Assembly: GCF_900096585.1 (NCBI RefSeq)
Contig: NZ_FMYH01000001.1
Location: 372,001 to 436,000, forward strand
DNA: 64,000 bases
Source of the DNA: Sanguibacter gelidistatuariae
GTDB lineage: Bacteria; Actinomycetota; Actinomycetes; Actinomycetales; Cellulomonadaceae
Direction of reading: 5' to 3'
Of this stretch, positions 4,445 through 13,066 are shown in pieces (the stretch's first letter is position 1; each line of letters starts with the position of its first letter). A program made the position numbers and the translations under genes. Under the pieces are notes generated by a model. That model saw only the letters and a list, made by a program, of their open reading frames with translations, had not been told where the DNA came from and made no database searches.

Positions 4445-4701
4445 TCCGATCTGTGCACTTCAGCGGCCCACCGGCCCCCTTCGGCTGGGGGAACAACAGG
4501 CCATGGCAGGACATTGCCACGCCCGCTCCCGGGACAGAAGCGGGGCTGCGCGGCGCGCTGTTCAGCCACGCACCTCCCCGGGTCGGACACGTCATTTCAT
4601 GCCACCGGCAAACGCTGTCCGGCACCATCCGAAGGGCTGGATCATTGATTCCGGCAGGGGAGCCACCCCGGCACCAGTACCACCAGCGCTAGGAGAGTCT
4701 G

Positions 4702-4950
4702 ATGGACAACATCATCCGATCTGCAGCCACGCGATCGGCGAGCATCGCCTCAGCGGCGGTCCTCGCCACCGGCTTGGTCCTGGCTGCTGGGACAGCTGCC
4801 TCCGCCCAAGTACCCGCTCCGCAGGTGGGGACGACCCAGGTCGTCACCACATCGGGGTCCGTCCTCGTCGGGACGAGTTCGACGAAGAAGCCCATCGGGA
4901 CGAACCCTGGTGTGGCCCAGCCGCTGAACGGGAGTGCATGGCAGGACTGA
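4702..4950 (+). CDS. Small exported-type Ser/Thr-rich peptide, candidate RiPP precursor
   Basis: An 82-aa product with GGAGAG before the ATG. Residues 1-35 look like a signal or leader: a short charged start, then an Ala/Leu/Val-rich core ending AGTAASA before QVPAPQ. The remaining 47 residues are rich in Thr, Ser, Val and Gly (VGTTQVVTTSGSVLVGTSST), have no Cys, and end GSAWQD. I recognise no named family. It lies 34 bp before a stand-alone lanthipeptide-dehydratase C-terminal-domain gene on the same strand, which suggests a modified-peptide precursor; a plain secreted peptide is the alternative. The 320 bp upstream hold only the hairpin at 4389-4444 and no convincing promoter. Confidence 0.7.
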   Translation: MDNIIRSAATRSASIASAAVLATGLVLAAGTAASAQVPAPQVGTTQVVTTSGSVLVGTSSTKKPIGTNPGVAQPLNGSAWQD

Positions 4951-4984
4951 CCGGCACGTCCGCTCGACCTGAAGGGTGCACATC

Positions 4985-5875
4985 ATGAGCACAGTCAGCA
5001 CGATGCGGCCGAGTTCGACGTCCCACGTTGACTGGTGGTTCGCGAGGCTAGGGACCGGGGGGTTGCAGCCACGCGACACGGTCATCAGCGATGTGATCGG
5101 GCCTCTTGTGCAAGAGGCCCGGTCACAGGGGCTCCTGAGATGGAGCTTCACCTGGCACCAGAGCTCGACCCGGACTTCGCTCATGCTGGCGCTGCTGGGA
5201 ACCGCACGTGTGGGACAGCTGCTGCCTGCGAGCTGGATCACGGCAGAAGACCGATCGGACACCGCGGTGTCCTGGCCGCAGGGGGGCCAGGAGACCGGGG
5301 CAGCCGCCTCGGACCTCGCCGAGTCCTTCGAAGAGCTCAGCTGCGACCTCGCGGTCTGGGCCGCCCAGGAACTCTCCCGGGAGACCGCCCGCGCCGCCCT
5401 CGGCGCCCTGCTCCTGCACGACGCCGCCCACGTGCTGCTGAGCCGACAGGTCTCGGACCCGCATCGCGGGGCCGGTGCCTGGGAGGAGTACTGGGACCGC
5501 CACGAGGCCACCTGGGGCCACCGCCACGACGCGGTCGCCCCGACGCTTCTCGCCCTCGACCTCAGTGCCCTGGCGACCTACTCCCTCGGGCCTCAGGTTG
5601 CCGAGCTCCGCTCGAGCTCGGTCGCGACCGAGTGGCGACACCGGTGGTCGCGCGGGCTGGAGCGCCTCCTCGACCGGTCGCGCGAGCTCGACCTCCCCAG
5701 CTCCCCGACCCGGCTCACCCTCATCCACTCCCACCTCCTCCTCAACCGCCTCGGCTTCCTCCCGCACGAGGAAGCCAGGCTCGGAGCGGTCGCTCGGGCG
5801 CTCGACGCCGAGAGCACCCCGCGCGCGGAGGAGCCCTCGCCGACAAGAGGTGAATGCCATGAACACTCTCACTGA
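4985..5875 (+). CDS. Stand-alone lantibiotic dehydratase C-terminal (SpaB_C/thiopeptide-type) domain protein
   Basis: A 296-aa protein resembling the elimination domain of class I lanthipeptide dehydratases (PF14028-like) without the glutamylation domain. What shows this: near the N-terminus WWFARLGTG, then DVIGPLVQEARSQGLLRWSF and a short beta-strand SLMLALLG; at the C-terminus LIHSHLLLNRLG...E followed by a helix, the typical family ending. Stand-alone members of this family are known either to eliminate glutamate from peptide esters or to catalyse the thiopeptide [4+2] cyclisation. No glutamylating partner is in the window. ATG at 4985, after AAGGG, is preferred over the GTG at 4976. It overlaps the next gene by 17 bp. 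Assignment is by pattern only. Confidence 0.72.
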   Translation: MSTVSTMRPSSTSHVDWWFARLGTGGLQPRDTVISDVIGPLVQEARSQGLLRWSFTWHQSSTRTSLMLALLGTARVGQLLPASWITAEDRSDTAVSWPQGGQETGAAASDLAESFEELSCDLAVWAAQELSRETARAALGALLLHDAAHVLLSRQVSDPHRGAGAWEEYWDRHEATWGHRHDAVAPTLLALDLSALATYSLGPQVAELRSSSVATEWRHRWSRGLERLLDRSRELDLPSSPTRLTLIHSHLLLNRLGFLPHEEARLGAVARALDAESTPRAEEPSPTRGECHEHSH

Positions 5876-6131
5876 CGAGACCCTCGACCTGGCCGAGCGG
5901 CTCGAGGCCGCGGTGACCCTGGACGGGGTCCTCAACGAGTCCGCGATCGCCACCGCGCTCGACGTGCCGCGCGCGGCCGCCGCGAACCAGATCCGACGGC
6001 TCGTCGCCGACGGGGCGATCCGGCCGTTCGAGCAGACCCGTTCCTACGTGCTGACGACGGAGGCCTGCGAAGGGCTGCGCAACCGGTGGGCCCGGTCGTG
6101 GGCCCTGGCCGTCTGGCCTGCGGACTCGTAG
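5859..6131 (+). CDS. Small winged-helix-like protein in RiPP-like cassette
   Basis: A 90-aa product whose ATG overlaps the end of the preceding gene, with AGAGGTG upstream. Residues about 10-65 fit a small helix-turn-helix with wing: a helix, then ESAIATALDVPRAAAANQIRRLVADGAI, then a beta pair. The C-terminus is Trp-rich (RNRWARSWALAVWPADS). No family is recognised. It could be a DNA-binding partner of the regulator encoded next, or a peptide-binding winged helix like the RRE recognition domains of RiPP enzymes; both are inference. Confidence 0.65.
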   Translation: MNTLTDETLDLAERLEAAVTLDGVLNESAIATALDVPRAAAANQIRRLVADGAIRPFEQTRSYVLTTEACEGLRNRWARSWALAVWPADS

Positions 6132-6215
6132 AACCCCTCGGCGGTCTCGACGTATCTGCGGCCCGGTGATGAGCTAGGCTCGAGGGCACCGTCGTCGCAC
6201 ACCCGAAGGGGCGCC

Positions 6216-7268
6216 ATGCCAGCACCCGATGGCCCACGCGACCAGGTGGCGAGCGAGACCGCGATGCGCCTCGGGCTCAGCGACACCGCCCGCGAGGTCT
6301 ACCTCTTCACCGCGTCGAACCCAGGCCTCGATCGGGCGGTCGCCCGTGACCGCCTAGGCCTGCCCTTCGACGAGGTCGACGTCGCATTGGCGTCCCTCGA
6401 GGCCGCGCGGCTCATCCGCAGGTCGTCCGGCGACCAGGGCTCCCACCATGTCTCCTGGGTGGCCGTCGCGCCCGAGCTCGCCGCGACGAGCCTGCTGGCC
6501 GATCAAGAGGAGCAGGTCGCCCGCCTCAGCCTGGACATCGCCGAACGCCGGGCACAGTTTCTGGCGCTGCTCCCCGGCTACCTGGACTCCCGGGCCGGCA
6601 GCTACTCCGAGGCCGGCATCGAGGTGATCGAGACCGGCGAGGAGGTCAACACCGTCCTGTCCCGGATCATCCGCGACACCCAGAAGCAGTGCTGGTGCGC
6701 GCACCCGGGCAACGGGCTCAATCCGGAGAACGTCCGCACGTCGTGGAAGAACGACCAGGAGATGATGGCCCGTGGCGTCGAGCTGAGGTCGATCCTCCAG
6801 CACAGCACCCGGACGCAGCTCGGCGCTCAGCGGTATGCGGCCCTGGCCATCCCGGCCGGCGCGAAGATCCGCACCATCCCGCTCGTCCCCGCGCGCACGC
6901 TGATCTACGACGGGGAGCTCGCCTTTCTCAGCCGCTTCGTCGACGGCCGCCCCAAGGGCGCCCTCCTGGTCCGCGACCCTGACCTCGTGGGCTACCTCAT
7001 CCAGGTCTATGAGGCGACCTGGTCGCTCGCGCAAGACTTTCCCATCGACGTCGAGCCGGCCGGGTCGGACACCGAGCTCGACGACACCTCCCGGGCTGTG
7101 CTGGCGCTGCTCGCCGCGGGCCACAAGGACGAGGTCATCGCCCGGCGGCTGGGGTGCAGCGTGCGCACCGCCCGACGGCACGTCTCGGCGATCATGGAGA
7201 CCCTTGAGGCGGAGAGCCGCTTCCAGGCGGGCGTGCGCGCCGCGCAGGCCGGCTGGCTCGACGCCTGA
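6216..7268 (+). CDS. Transcriptional regulator: TrmB-like N-terminus plus LuxR-type C-terminal HTH
   Basis: A 350-aa regulator. Residues about 15-75 form a TrmB-type winged helix (LSDTAREVYLFTASNP...VDVALASLEAARLIRR). A central PLD-like ligand region follows (about 120-280), and the C-terminus is a LuxR HTH (DTSRAVLALLAAGHKDEVIARR..CSVRTARRHVSAIM, about 290-335). AAGGGG precedes the ATG. The 84-bp gap upstream contains TAGGCT, a plausible -10, so it may also be transcribed alone. Such TrmB/LuxR fusions occur beside peptide natural-product genes in actinobacteria; control of the three upstream genes is inferred from position. Confidence 0.8.
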   Translation: MPAPDGPRDQVASETAMRLGLSDTAREVYLFTASNPGLDRAVARDRLGLPFDEVDVALASLEAARLIRRSSGDQGSHHVSWVAVAPELAATSLLADQEEQVARLSLDIAERRAQFLALLPGYLDSRAGSYSEAGIEVIETGEEVNTVLSRIIRDTQKQCWCAHPGNGLNPENVRTSWKNDQEMMARGVELRSILQHSTRTQLGAQRYAALAIPAGAKIRTIPLVPARTLIYDGELAFLSRFVDGRPKGALLVRDPDLVGYLIQVYEATWSLAQDFPIDVEPAGSDTELDDTSRAVLALLAAGHKDEVIARRLGCSVRTARRHVSAIMETLEAESRFQAGVRAAQAGWLDA

Positions 7269-9293: not shown

Positions 9294-11663
9294 ATGACGA
9301 CACCTCACGAGCGCAGCTCCATCTCCCCCCAGGGAACATTCCCGGCATTCCCCGCCGGAACCGTCCTCGGCTACCCCCGCATCGGCCCGCGCCGCGAGCT
9401 CAAGAAGGCCGTCGAGTCCTTCTGGGCCGGCCGGATCGACGCGACCGAGCTCGAGGCCACAGCCGCGACCCTGCGTAAGAACACCCGCGACCGCCTGGTC
9501 TCCCTCGGCCTCTCGGCCACAGACGCCGCGATCCCGGGCACCTTCTCCTTCTACGACCAGGTGCTCGACGCCGCGGCGACCGTGGGCGCCGTGCCCACCC
9601 GTTTCGCCGGGCTCACCGACGCCAACGGCACCCTCGACCTCGCCGGCTACTTCACCGTTGCCCGCGGCGCAGGCGAGGACGCCCCGCTCGAGATGACGAA
9701 GTGGTTCGATACGAACTACCACTACCTCGTCCCCGAGATCGGCCCGGACACCGAGTTCCGCTTCGCGAGCGACCGCATCGTCCGCGAGTTCGCCGAGGGC
9801 CTGGCCGACGGCGTCACGACCCGCCCCGTGCTCGTCGGCCCGGTCACGTTCCTGCTGCTCAGCAAGGCAGCCGACGACGCACCGGCCGGCTTCCAGCCGC
9901 TCTCCCGCCTCGCCGACCTGCTCCCCGTCTACGCCCAGGTGCTCACCGCTCTCGCCGCCGCCGGGGCGACCTGGGTCCAGCTCGACGAGCCGGCCCTGGT
10001 CACCGACAACATCGACGTGCCGCTCGCCGACGTGCTCACTGCGGTGACTGCCGCCTACCGCGCGCTCGCGACCGACCTGACCCGTCCCACCCGCCCGGCC
10101 ATCCTGCTCGGCGCCCCCTTCGGCGACCTGCAGGAGGCGCTCGTCGTCGTCGCGGCGACCGACGTCGAGGCCCTGGCCATCGACCTCGTCAAGGGTTCTG
10201 CGCCGACCGGCCCGGTCGCCGGCCTGGAGACCAAGACCCTCGTCGCCGGCGTCGTCGACGGCCACAACATCTGGCGCGCGGACCTGTCCGCCAAGCTTGA
10301 GATCGTCGAACGCCTCCAGGTGCTCGGCGCCGGCGCGGTCACGGTGGGCACGTCCACCTCGCTCCAGCACGTGCCGCACACCACGGCCGACGAGCCCGAC
10401 CTCGACGACACCCTGAAGAGCTGGTTGGCCTTCGCAGACGAGAAGGTCACCGAGGTCGTCACCCTCGCGCAGGGCCTGACCGAGGGCCGCGAGGCCATCG
10501 ACGCCCAGCTGGTCGCCGCGAGCGCGGCCGTCGCCTCCCGCGCGACCGCTGCGGGCGTCGTCGCGGCAGACGTCCGTGAGCGCACGGCTGCCCTGGCCGA
10601 CGGCGACTTCCACCGCGGCCCGGCCGCCGAGCGGCGCGCGGCGCAGGCCGAGCGGCTCAACCTGCCGCTCCTGCCCACGACGACCATCGGGTCGTTCCCG
10701 CAGACCCTCGAGATCCGCAAGGCGCGCGCCGCCCACGCCAAGGGCGAGCTCTCCCTCGAGGCCTACGAGGACGAGATGCGCGCGGAGATCAAGCGCGTCG
10801 TCGACCTGCAGGAGGAGATCGGCATCGACGTCCTCGTGCACGGCGAGGCCGAGCGCAACGACATGGTGCAGTACTTCGCCGAGCTGCTCGACGGCTTCGC
10901 GGTGACCCAGAACGGGTGGGTGCAGTCCTACGGCTCGCGCTGCACGCGCCCGTCGATCCTGTGGGGCGACGTGTCCCGCCCGGCGCCGATGACCGTGCGC
11001 TGGACCGAATACACGCAGTCGCTGTCGACCAAGCCGGTCAAGGGCATGCTCACCGGACCGGTGACGATCATGGCCTGGTCCTTCGTCCGCGACGACATCG
11101 CGCTGGGCGAGACCGCGAACCAGATCGGCCTCGCGCTGCGCGACGAGATCGGCGACCTCGAGTCCGCCGGCATCGCGATCATCCAGGTGGACGAGCCCGC
11201 GCTGCGCGAGCTGCTACCGCTGCGCAAGGCGGACCAGGCGGCCTACCTCGACTGGTCGGTCAGCTCCTTCACGCTCTCGACCGCCGGGGTTCGCCCGGAC
11301 ACCCAGATCCACACGCACCTGTGCTACTCCGAGTTCGGTGAGGTCATCGGCGCGATCGACGCCCTCGACGCGGACGTGACCTCGATCGAGGCCGCCCGCT
11401 CGCGCATGGAGATCCTGCCGGACCTCAACGCCTCCGGGTTCTCCCGCGGGGTCGGCCCTGGCGTGTACGACATCCACTCCCCGCGCGTGCCCTCCCAGGA
11501 CGAGGTCACCGAGCTGCTCGAGCTCGCGGTGAAGTCCGTCGACCCAGCCCTGCTGTGGGTCAACCCCGACTGCGGGCTCAAGACCCGCGGCTACGCCGAG
11601 ACGACGCCGTCCCTCAAGCACCTGGTCGAGGCCGCTCGCGCGGTGCGCGCCCAGCTCGGCTGA
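9294..11663 (+). CDS. metE: Cobalamin-independent methionine synthase (5-methyltetrahydropteroyltriglutamate-homocysteine methyltransferase)
   Basis: Transfers the methyl group from methyl-THF polyglutamate to homocysteine. The 789-aa protein has the N-terminal domain starting GYPRIGPRRELKKAVESFW and a C-terminal catalytic barrel from about residue 460 (TTIGSFPQT). Zinc-ligand motifs HGEAERNDMVQYF, HLCYSEF and NPDCGLKTRG are intact. AAGGG lies 6 nt before the ATG at 9294. It is the second gene of the SAM-I riboswitch operon, and a 15-bp hairpin follows it. Confidence 0.96.
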   Translation: MTTPHERSSISPQGTFPAFPAGTVLGYPRIGPRRELKKAVESFWAGRIDATELEATAATLRKNTRDRLVSLGLSATDAAIPGTFSFYDQVLDAAATVGAVPTRFAGLTDANGTLDLAGYFTVARGAGEDAPLEMTKWFDTNYHYLVPEIGPDTEFRFASDRIVREFAEGLADGVTTRPVLVGPVTFLLLSKAADDAPAGFQPLSRLADLLPVYAQVLTALAAAGATWVQLDEPALVTDNIDVPLADVLTAVTAAYRALATDLTRPTRPAILLGAPFGDLQEALVVVAATDVEALAIDLVKGSAPTGPVAGLETKTLVAGVVDGHNIWRADLSAKLEIVERLQVLGAGAVTVGTSTSLQHVPHTTADEPDLDDTLKSWLAFADEKVTEVVTLAQGLTEGREAIDAQLVAASAAVASRATAAGVVAADVRERTAALADGDFHRGPAAERRAAQAERLNLPLLPTTTIGSFPQTLEIRKARAAHAKGELSLEAYEDEMRAEIKRVVDLQEEIGIDVLVHGEAERNDMVQYFAELLDGFAVTQNGWVQSYGSRCTRPSILWGDVSRPAPMTVRWTEYTQSLSTKPVKGMLTGPVTIMAWSFVRDDIALGETANQIGLALRDEIGDLESAGIAIIQVDEPALRELLPLRKADQAAYLDWSVSSFTLSTAGVRPDTQIHTHLCYSEFGEVIGAIDALDADVTSIEAARSRMEILPDLNASGFSRGVGPGVYDIHSPRVPSQDEVTELLELAVKSVDPALLWVNPDCGLKTRGYAETTPSLKHLVEAARAVRAQLG

Positions 11664-11685
11664 CAGCCGGCCAGCCGGTTGCCGG

Positions 11686-11729
11686 CGCAGCGGGTGGTCC
11701 GAGACTCACGTCTGGGACCACCCGCTGCG
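11686..11729 (+). terminator. Hairpin terminator after metE
   Basis: CGCAGCGGGTGGTCC (11686-11700) pairs exactly with 11715-11729 across a 14-nt loop, 22 bp past the metE stop. There is no T-tract. Confidence 0.75.
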
Positions 11730-11866
11730 GCGCACTGTGCGCACCCAGGTCTCGACCTCGGCGCGTGAGCGCAGGCGCACGAGGGTCAGGTGCGGGGCCG
11801 TTGCCTCTGGTGTCGGTGGTGAGGTGCACGATGGGCTGGCTGGCAATTGGGGAAGTGGGTGGTGAG

Positions 11867-13066
11867 ATGACGTTGCAGGGTTTCCGGCTCGAGCTCGCGC
11901 CCACGCCTGAGCAGGCCGGGCGGTTGTCCGCGCATGAGGGTTTGCATCGGGTGGTGTTCAACCATTGCCTCGCGCGCGTCAAGGCCGTGATGGATCAACG
12001 CGCGGCTGAGCGGTCGTACGGCATCGTGGATGCGGACCTGACGCCAGTCCAGTCGTGGTCGGGTCCCGGGTTGGAGAAGTACTGGCGCGAGACTGCGGCG
12101 ACATACCCGTGGTTCGCGGGTGAGCGCATGTCTTCGCGGGTGCCGAAGGAGGCGTGCCGGTCGTTGGCGGCGGCCTTGTCGAACTGGTCGACGTCGAAGG
12201 CCGGGGCGCGCCGGGGCCGCAAGGTTGGGTTCCCCGGCTTTCGCCGGCGTAAGGATGGTGGCAGGTTCCGCATGGACTCCGATCGCATTCACCCCACAGG
12301 TGCCCGCGCCATGCACATTCCAGCTGTGGGCGTGGTCCGCACTCGGGAGGATGCCACCTGGCTCACCGGGCGCCTGGCAGAGGGCCGGGCGCGCATCTTG
12401 GGCGGTGCTGCCTCCCGGGTGGCGGGGCGGTGGTGGGTGTCCTTCCAGGTCGAGGTCGACCGCACGGATATCAACGCCCACCACCGCGCGCCCACTGATG
12501 GCCCGGTCGTCGGCATCGACCTCGGGATCAAGACCTACGCGACCATCGCGTCCTCGGACGGGACCGTGGTGGAGGTCGCCAACCCGCGTCATCTGGCCCG
12601 AGCTCAGCGCAAGCTGGCCAGGCTCAACAAGGCCCTGGCGCGCACCCAGCGCGGGTCGGCCAACCGTGCCAAGGCCGTCCGCAAGGTTGCCCAGGTGCAT
12701 CTGGACGTCGCTCACGCGCGGGCGGACTTCGGGCACAAGTTCACGACGGAACTGGCGAGAACCAAGTCCGTGATCGTCGTGGAAGACCTGCACGTAGCAG
12801 GCATGGTCAAGAACCGCAGGCTCGCCCGGGCGATCTCCGACGCAGGGTGGGCCACCGTCCTGCACCAGCTCGCCTACAAGGCAGCCTGGTACGGGTCGCG
12901 TCTGGTGGTCGCCGACCGCTGGTTCCCGTCTTCGCGCCTGTGCTCGGCGTGCGGGGTCATCAACACCGAACTCACCCTGGCTGATCGGGTGTGGACGTGC
13001 CCGTGCGGCATCGTTCACGATCGTGACGTCACCGCCGCCCGCAACCTGCTGGGCCTCGTAGCCTAA
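11867..13066 (+). CDS. tnpB: TnpB (OrfB) RNA-guided nuclease of an IS200/IS605-IS607-type element
   Basis: A 399-aa TnpB, the transposon-encoded ancestor of Cas12 that cuts DNA guided by an omega-RNA. The RuvC triad is complete: D218 in GIDLGIKTYAT, E306 in VVEDLHVAGM, D387 in HDRDVTAARN. The zinc finger is CSAC..CPC (about 366-384) and the N-terminal wedge begins GFRLELAPTPEQ. No tnpA is present, so this is a solitary TnpB element. ATG at 11867 is chosen because the protein then begins at the conserved N-terminus; an in-frame ATG at 11831 would add 12 residues. It is inserted between the metE terminator and a GNAT gene; the left end is not recognisable. Confidence 0.9.
   Translation: MTLQGFRLELAPTPEQAGRLSAHEGLHRVVFNHCLARVKAVMDQRAAERSYGIVDADLTPVQSWSGPGLEKYWRETAATYPWFAGERMSSRVPKEACRSLAAALSNWSTSKAGARRGRKVGFPGFRRRKDGGRFRMDSDRIHPTGARAMHIPAVGVVRTREDATWLTGRLAEGRARILGGAASRVAGRWWVSFQVEVDRTDINAHHRAPTDGPVVGIDLGIKTYATIASSDGTVVEVANPRHLARAQRKLARLNKALARTQRGSANRAKAVRKVAQVHLDVAHARADFGHKFTTELARTKSVIVVEDLHVAGMVKNRRLARAISDAGWATVLHQLAYKAAWYGSRLVVADRWFPSSRLCSACGVINTELTLADRVWTCPCGIVHDRDVTAARNLLGLVA

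Follow-up and report, generated by a model that had tools for sequence, protein, structure and literature searches.

Among described signalling systems the nearest to the locus reported here are the RRNPP pheromones of Firmicutes (Phr, PapR, SHP/Rgg and ComS-XIP, of which XIP bears a Trp motif). The likeness lies in a small precursor that often has a signal sequence, a signal unit at its C-terminus, an adjacent cytosolic regulator and putative autoregulation. The differences are that our candidate receptor is a TrmB-LuxR protein without a TPR domain, that the locus is actinobacterial, that a stand-alone LanB C-terminal domain protein (LanB-C) joins it as a putative accessory, and that, in the wider group, signal units occur in tandem. 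The archaeal regulators TrmB and TrmBL2 resemble our regulator in their winged-helix and sensor profile, but the latter carries an additional C-terminal LuxR helix-turn-helix (HTH) and lies beside peptide genes rather than sugar transporters; to our knowledge, the ligands of TrmB-type sensors are sugars and not peptides. Actinobacterial genomes code for many LuxR-type regulators each, whose ligands are mostly unknown, and a review of the field (PMC4748050) reports no acyl-homoserine lactones known to act on them. On the enzymatic side, the LanB elimination domain, as in NisB and MibB, is like LanB-C in its fold and in the His of the HMxxNR motif, but our locus has no glutamylation domain in the protein or the genome and no lanthionine precursor in the cassette. 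The thiopeptide pyridine synthases (TbtD, PbtD, TsrL and TclM) are, like LanB-C, stand-alone proteins of similar size and fold, but the peptide described here lacks a Cys- or Ser-rich core to cyclise.

Our locus lies in a 64,000-nucleotide stretch of Sanguibacter gelidistatuariae DNA, analysed as a whole and termed the window, and comprises the following features:

4702..4950, + strand: short peptide gene, 82 aa, candidate autoinducer precursor (from its sequence and its position as in related cassettes)
4985..5875, + strand: stand-alone LanB C-terminal-fold protein (LanB-C), PF14028, 296 aa (from profile and fold)
5859..6131, + strand: winged-helix-like small protein, 90 aa, sharing a 17-bp overlap with LanB-C
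6216..7268, + strand: TrmB-LuxR transcriptional regulator, 350 aa, candidate peptide receptor (from profile and 27-37% identity to the regulators of Arthrobacter cassettes)
4585..4602, + strand: GGACACGTCATTTCATGC, a possible (suggestive only) site for binding of the regulator, 117 bp ahead of the start codon of the peptide gene

The ORF coordinates confirm the arrangement given in the preliminary description of this DNA, namely four same-strand genes with a 34-bp gap, a 17-bp overlap and an 84-bp gap between them. A purine-rich Shine-Dalgarno-like stretch precedes each ORF (the longest possible LanB-C ORF starts with a GTG at 4976), and no peptidase, transporter or uptake gene lies within the cassette.

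We propose, with a probability of about 0.52, that this cassette is a self-contained, autoregulated peptide-signalling circuit of the pheromone type, with the TrmB-LuxR protein as receptor and LanB-C as an exapted accessory. We infer peptide export, processing, sensing, autoregulation and a role for LanB-C as follows. The 82-aa gene would encode a Sec-exported precursor, and its C-terminal Trp motif (GSAWQD here, WDW or WEW in Arthrobacter) would be set free to serve as a small signal. This peptide might be recognised, as such or once taken up again or processed, by the TrmB-type sensor domain of the cytosolic TrmB-LuxR protein, which would switch the promoter of the peptide gene and the co-transcribed genes. 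LanB-C, which has no glutamylation partner, probably has its origin in RiPP clusters, in a domain of the elimination or pyridine-synthase type, and together with the small winged-helix protein it may have been exapted for handling the peptide by binding, trimming or modifying the signal.

The 296-aa protein had been taken for a lone LanB C-terminal domain, and profile and structure comparisons agree: residues 17-270 match PF14028 at 25.2 bits (gathering threshold 24.4; E 2e-5), and the AlphaFold model (pLDDT 79.7) has strong structural matches only to LanB elimination domains and thiopeptide pyridine synthases, namely MibB, TsrL, NisB, TbtD and PbtD. A Foldseek comparison of the model with MibB gave an E of 1e-5, and VIA-align over residues 14-282 gave Z-scores of 17.7 for MibB and 16.8 for NisB, while those for the pyridine synthases, 15.7-17.4 (TsrL 17.4, TbtD 16.6), indicate a shared fold only. 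The window protein has no match in an NCBIfam search and therefore does not reach TIGR03891, the second model suggested for it; its relatives score 36-43 bits against that model, below the cut-off of 48.45.

The eliminating residues of NisB are R786, R826 and H961 (PMC4979651, PMC4341554). In LanB-C the equivalent of H961 is kept as H250 (5732-5734), and those of R786 and R826 are absent, the arginines of HLRxR and [RK]YGG being replaced (SLMLA and QETGAA); two of the three glutamate-eliminating residues are thus gone. This loss argues against canonical lanthipeptide-type dehydration with a glutamylation domain acting in trans, a reading that could draw on the PF14028 fold, the retained His and the Ser and Thr in the tail of the window peptide. 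The partner supposed to lie elsewhere in the genome did not turn up either: the complete window genome has no PF04738 match at E <= 1, and eight genomes with Arthrobacter-type cassettes have none above the cut-off. Since, moreover, the cassette peptides are free of Cys and conserve neither Ser nor Thr, we consider dehydration in trans close to refuted. The window genome has no second PF14028 protein, and no plasmid relatives of LanB-C were found.

A scan of the genome collection with the single LanB-C protein found nothing, and an alignment query was needed to find related cassettes. The related set, consisting of peptide, LanB-C, small protein and divergent TrmB-LuxR, was recovered in 48 Arthrobacter-type loci, for which reason the window cassette, which has all four parts, is not due to chance. 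Among the 48, a divergent regulator is present in 45, a small downstream gene in 46 and a gene for a W-acid-W peptide in 47. A short peptide gene lies directly upstream of the LanB-C gene in 47 of the 48; the peptide gene is hence conserved next to LanB-C, and together with the PF14028 hit this passes the refuting test set in the preliminary description. Identity between the window and these cassettes is up to 36% for LanB-C and 27-37% for the regulator, which is downstream and co-directional in the window but divergent in Arthrobacter. One of the cassettes (locus L043) is carried by Arthrobacter agilis UMCV2; the main text of a study of LuxR solos in this strain (PMC9659744) names no TrmB-type regulator.

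The Arthrobacter peptide ORFs are 7, 17 or 44-56 aa long, and their C-terminal motifs take the form of SWDWPK repeats, AWDW, KSWEWF or the minimal 7-aa gene MKSWDWF, with S, N, A, V or I preceding the first Trp. ORFs with a W[DE]W within four residues of their end number 45 in the 320 bp ahead of LanB-C, as against 11 in the rest of 512 kb. Within the motif, codons for D, E, P, K, S and N vary synonymously, and D and E replace each other; judged by these substitutions, the Trp motif is conserved at the amino-acid level. Related cassettes have a CATGTC-type box, GGNCATGWCNNGAA, 113-127 bp ahead of the start codon of the peptide. As this distance holds alike for ORFs of 7, 17 or 44-56 aa, it marks even MKSWDWF as a genuine gene. 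Each of seven Arthrobacter genomes has the composite site TGTCATTAACNNGACATGTCA exactly once, at the cassette, and the reversed control has none. The Arthrobacter operator has no match in the window genome at three mismatches. The window site GGACACGTCATTTCATGC is the best match at the corresponding distance, yet it is weak, 291 of 127,964 window positions scoring equally, and is suggestive only as a regulator-binding site.

In Arthrobacter, tiny ORFs such as MKSWDWF stop at a near-constant distance from the start of LanB-C, mostly 83-106 nt ahead of it. This would suit a short Trp-rich ORF that yields no product and controls LanB-C as a leader peptide or translational attenuator. We consider such a role very improbable: most versions have signal sequences and many have tandem repeats, the window has a spacing of only 34 nt and a single Trp codon, and motif peptides also adjoin TrmB-LuxR genes with no LanB-C downstream.

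In the window peptide, residues 1-35 (about 4702-4806) form a Sec-type signal sequence, with the cleavage site between GTAASA and QVPAP assigned by eye using the AxA rule, without a predictor. The mature part is Cys-free and bears the C-terminal motif GSAWQD at 4930-4947. It contains a single Trp (AWQD), no W-acid-W and no repeat, and is compatible with the broad pattern W[DEQGNT]; as a Trp among the last few residues of a peptide is not rare by chance, its membership of the motif group rests mainly on gene position. The original characterization of the peptide as Ser/Thr-rich holds for the window but not as a conserved property, and the idea that a dehydratable Ser/Thr tail is its point is not supported; the conserved core is the Trp motif.

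The 350-aa regulator combines an N-terminal winged helix, a TrmB-like sensor and a C-terminal LuxR/GerE HTH. A GerE/LuxR profile hits the C-terminal part, and a profile of the regulator family matches TrmBL2 across the winged helix and the sensor, which upholds the regulator's first assignment as TrmB/LuxR. Related regulators adjoin Trp-motif peptides, without LanB-C, well beyond Arthrobacter: in a LanM lanthipeptide cluster a GIRIWDW peptide lies beside a regulator 48% identical to that of Arthrobacter; other genera belonging to the same family as the window have peptides with DPQWE/DPQWD repeats; in Streptomyces-like genomes they carry GVIGWD, GDMGWQ, EPGWQ, DLPWT and others; and further Sec-type peptides end in DPGWQ or DSLWD. 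The motifs are often repeated, with two to five tandem copies per precursor; tandem motif copies are typical of multi-copy signal precursors. A second family of small proteins, some 95-120 aa long and marked by an EHV motif, recurs beside the Streptomyces-type peptides; profile comparison showed no relation to LanB-C, and it was rejected as a relative. In two genomes of the same genus as the window (G205 and G206) the syntenic spot has only a truncated regulator, without peptide and LanB-C.

In a first set of loci, 22 motif peptides lay near the regulator (140 kb) and two far from it (209 kb). Because the criterion had been written after seeing these loci, it was applied unchanged to 20 unseen loci, where 11 were found near the regulator (48 kb) and two away from it (74 kb). 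Under this criterion about a third of the first 60 TrmB-LuxR loci and a half of the fresh 20 have a motif peptide. These include loci without LanB-C, and that the Trp motif follows the regulator even there points to peptide signalling rather than a minimal dehydration system. The earlier suggestion of a new use of the domain is likely. The Trp-motif peptides tried fall into no family of Pfam or NCBIfam, and the literature searched contained no paper describing them (others may exist), motif searches giving unrelated papers only. As the pairing recurs across actinobacteria, the Trp-motif peptides and TrmB-LuxR look, from sequence, like a family of peptide signals in bacteria that has not been described. 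More tentatively, at somewhat less than even odds, they may form an actinobacteria-wide pheromone family for which an orphan LanB domain, no longer a dehydratase, was recruited for processing or modifying the signal.

As a rule the peptides carry signal sequences, in Arthrobacter and the window as well as in the Streptomyces-like genomes and the other genera of the window's family. One Arthrobacter clade has leaderless peptides of 7-17 aa, and therefore Sec export is not universal. These versions, and the lack of a transporter in the cassette, would fit a peptide that serves inside the producer as a cofactor or antagonist of LanB-C or the regulator, without cell-to-cell signalling; given the prevalence of signal sequences we consider this improbable.

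The main rival to the signalling circuit is a minimal RiPP system with new chemistry, in which LanB-C would modify the Trp-acid-Trp core, for example at its acidic residue or Trp by elimination or cyclisation, the small winged-helix protein would perhaps be the recognition element, and TrmB-LuxR would control the cluster or sense the product. The stand-alone relatives of the LanB-C fold are RiPP enzymes, and distant LanB-C homologs in other genera of the order and class, wherever their surroundings are readable, lie in split-LanB or thiopeptide-type RiPP clusters and not in cassettes. Of 44 full-length cassette proteins most retain the equivalent of H961, and paralogs without a peptide have mostly lost it (17 orphan paralog loci in Arthrobacter have no adjoining motif peptide). 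TrmB-LuxR also adjoins LanM and YcaO genes. In the cassettes the gene after the peptide is always LanB-C. Its constant presence there hints that the peptide is bound or chemically altered in some way, a point on which the signalling model stays vague. Against new RiPP chemistry, the motif peptides adjoin the regulator without LanB-C, the arginines equivalent to R786 and R826 are gone from the window protein, a 7-aa leaderless substrate offers no leader for the usual recognition, and the peptides have neither Cys, conserved Ser/Thr nor a constant residue before the first Trp. We therefore judge new RiPP chemistry unlikely, though less so than the other alternatives. If the signalling circuit is real, the neighbouring Trp-motif peptide would be a testable ligand for many LuxR-type regulators, including those beside lanthipeptide and YcaO clusters, and perhaps a means to activate silent clusters; LanB-C would be a rare example of a RiPP dehydratase domain persisting without its partner.

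The 90-aa protein had been described as a winged-helix protein, possibly for peptide recognition. It matches generic winged-helix/HTH models only, all below the cut-off (Pfam, NCBIfam), and neither it nor its 63-aa counterparts match an RRE or PqqD-like model there. Its positional counterpart in the Arthrobacter cassettes, and perhaps its homolog, is a protein of 61-63 aa, to which its identity is 15-28%. AlphaFold predicts a beta-alpha-alpha-beta-beta-alpha arrangement for the 63-aa counterpart (pLDDT 72), and the most conserved part of the Arthrobacter protein is its C-terminus, RDAAWADxxW.

The LanB-C cassette of the window comprises four genes, each preceded by a plausible ribosome-binding site, and re-reading of the sequence bore out both their positions and their spacing (34 bp, a 17-bp overlap and 84 bp):

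4702-4950, + strand, peptide (82 aa)
4985-5875, + strand, LanB-C, a stand-alone PF14028 protein (296 aa)
5859-6131, + strand, small protein (90 aa)
6216-7268, + strand, TrmB-LuxR regulator (350 aa)

As the preliminary description had supposed, the 296-aa protein belongs to PF14028, narrowly passing the curated cut-off (25.2 vs 24.4 bits); relatives encoded in Arthrobacter cassettes reach 60-66 bits. Using an AlphaFold2 model (55 homologs, pLDDT 79.7, pTM 0.79), we found that the predicted fold strongly matches solely LanB elimination domains and thiopeptide pyridine synthases (structure-comparison Z: MibB 17.7, TsrL 17.4, MadB 17.0, NisB 16.8, TbtD 16.6, next 7.7; Foldseek E 8e-6 to 5e-4 for those fold matches). 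H250 is kept, and counterparts of NisB R786 and R826, the arginines required for glutamate elimination (PMC4979651, PMC4341554), are absent, making ordinary glutamate elimination unlikely on the basis of these residues.

The orphan state of this LanB-C is real. The glutamylation partner proposed to lie elsewhere in the genome did not materialize, there being zero PF04738 matches in 4.04 Mb (100% complete), and the single PF14028 match is the cassette protein itself, which among 222 genomes of the family is confined to this one. Truncated regulator remnants lie between nagA and a PH-domain gene in two species of the same genus (L170:6669-7490, L171:6543-7196), with none of the peptide, LanB-C and small-protein genes at the syntenic spot; the cassette thus appears to have been lost there. 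Elsewhere in the window, an ORF at 11555-13066 resembles TnpB of the IS200/IS605 type, including a CxxC zinc finger at its end; TnpA appears to be lacking close by.

An order-wide scan recovered clear LanB-C homologs in just one further family; by the named genome collection, these belong to Arthrobacter and close kin, with 65 loci. A related gene set, sought as conservation of the neighborhood, is present at 48 of them: a divergent TrmB-LuxR gene flanks LanB-C in 45, a small gene lies immediately downstream in 46, or both. The window cassette has the same gene set, but its regulator is downstream on the same strand. Most cassette copies retain the histidine equivalent to NisB H961, which is gone in most of the 17 stand-alone paralogs. 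Two of the latter (L073, L100) lie near GAF-ANTAR- and EAL-domain-like signalling proteins, a setting that would agree with the domain being used in regulation. An Arthrobacter-type cassette also sits on a contig attributed to Vibrio cholerae strain 35D (L077), probably because that assembly is contaminated with actinobacterial DNA.

The small gene of Arthrobacter encodes a 63-aa protein with a winged helix predicted by AlphaFold and a strongly conserved C-terminal RDAAWADxxW, the sole part remaining in several species. The window 90-aa protein aligns poorly with it (15-28%), has WARSWALAVW near its end and occupies the same gene position, and is likely its equivalent. Comparison with Pfam and NCBIfam profiles found no recognisable RRE in the 90-aa protein.

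Examination of the region 5' of LanB-C revealed a short ORF ending in Trp-acid-Trp or a close variant in 47/48 cassettes, usually 83-106 nt before LanB-C in Arthrobacter-type cassettes. The motif stands near an ORF end 45 times just upstream of LanB-C vs 11 times across the remaining 512 kb. Codon changes within it are synonymous or exchange Asp and Glu. The peptides take three forms: 1) a signal sequence (here and below called by a hydropathy rule) followed by 2-4 repeats (..SISAASWDWPKSQATAGSWDWPK; ..ANWEWPK x3; GVWDWPQQ x4); 2) a signal sequence with one terminal motif (..VAAWDW, ..ARAWDW, ..AIWDWKN); 3) leaderless mini-genes (MEKATGSTVSIKSWEWF, MTKVWDWI, MKSWDWF). The candidate 7-codon gene MKSWDWF is kept in five Arthrobacter species (L053:4880-4903; L054, L055, L056, L058), with a box 121-122 bp upstream. 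This box, GGNCATGWCNNGAA, lies 113-127 bp upstream of the peptide start codon in ~30 cassettes irrespective of ORF length (7 aa as well as 56 aa), an argument for the mini-genes being real. In each of seven Arthrobacter genomes, a composite direct-repeat site is present a single time, at the cassette; the regulator appears dedicated to this locus. In the window peptide, a signal sequence and an AxA site are followed by the end GSAWQD, the second Trp missing; its candidate box is at the expected distance, the match being suggestive only.

A class-wide scan recovered such TrmB-LuxR regulators in 169/394 genomes and 52/131 genera. At 20 of 60 loci read, a Sec-type short ORF carrying W[DEQGNTW] as its terminal motif lies no more than 1.2 kb from the regulator; motif ORFs numbered 22 in 140 kb near it vs 2 in 209 kb farther away, and 9/10 repeated-motif precursors were near. 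As this criterion was formulated after viewing the 60 loci, we reran it unchanged on 20 unseen ones, recovering 11 near (48 kb) vs 2 far (74 kb). A few near ORFs look like chance occurrences, e.g. in L277 and an antisense ORF in L233. By these distributions, the motif belongs with the regulator. Sec-type short peptides with 2-5 motif copies near TrmB-LuxR genes (L210, L212, L214, L216, L223, L224, L227, L239, L241, L174-L177), include five GAGWD units in L216 and three EPGWQ-type units in L223; those compared with Pfam and NCBIfam matched no family. Among the closest non-cassette regulators, those in further genera of the window's family adjoin a Sec-type peptide in which DPQWE or DPQWD is repeated. 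In another genus of that family, a regulator 48% identical to that of Arthrobacter adjoins a LanM lanthipeptide synthetase and a C39 transporter (PF13575, PF05147, PF03412), beside a Sec-type peptide ending GIRIWDW; this lanthipeptide cluster may be under peptide control:

L172:825-7824, LanM, C39 transporter, TrmB-LuxR and WDW peptide in a row

All conclusions on the cassette draw on sequence evidence, which a signal peptide paired with a receptor would explain most simply. The precursor would be made and mostly exported via Sec, a signal unit would be cut out of its C-terminus or repeats, and the TrmB-LuxR protein would sense this unit and control its own locus, sometimes also a biosynthetic cluster. 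The layout is like that of RRNPP signalling, but the candidate receptor differs. LanB-C would be an accessory recruited in one lineage; a conservative guess for its role is peptide binding, by analogy with TbtD, which binds its leader (PDB 5wa4). Alternatively, LanB-C might modify the Trp core in a new way, as favored by the constant adjacency of the peptide and LanB-C genes and by the kept histidine. LanB-C possibly has a functional counterpart in a 95-120-aa EHV-motif family, without a Pfam match, which replaces it as the third gene in 12/27 loci with a motif peptide:

L174:287-571, EHV-motif protein next to a Trp-motif peptide gene
L176:6142-6429, the same
L177:7637-7927, the same
L219:2440-2763, the same
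eight other loci, the same
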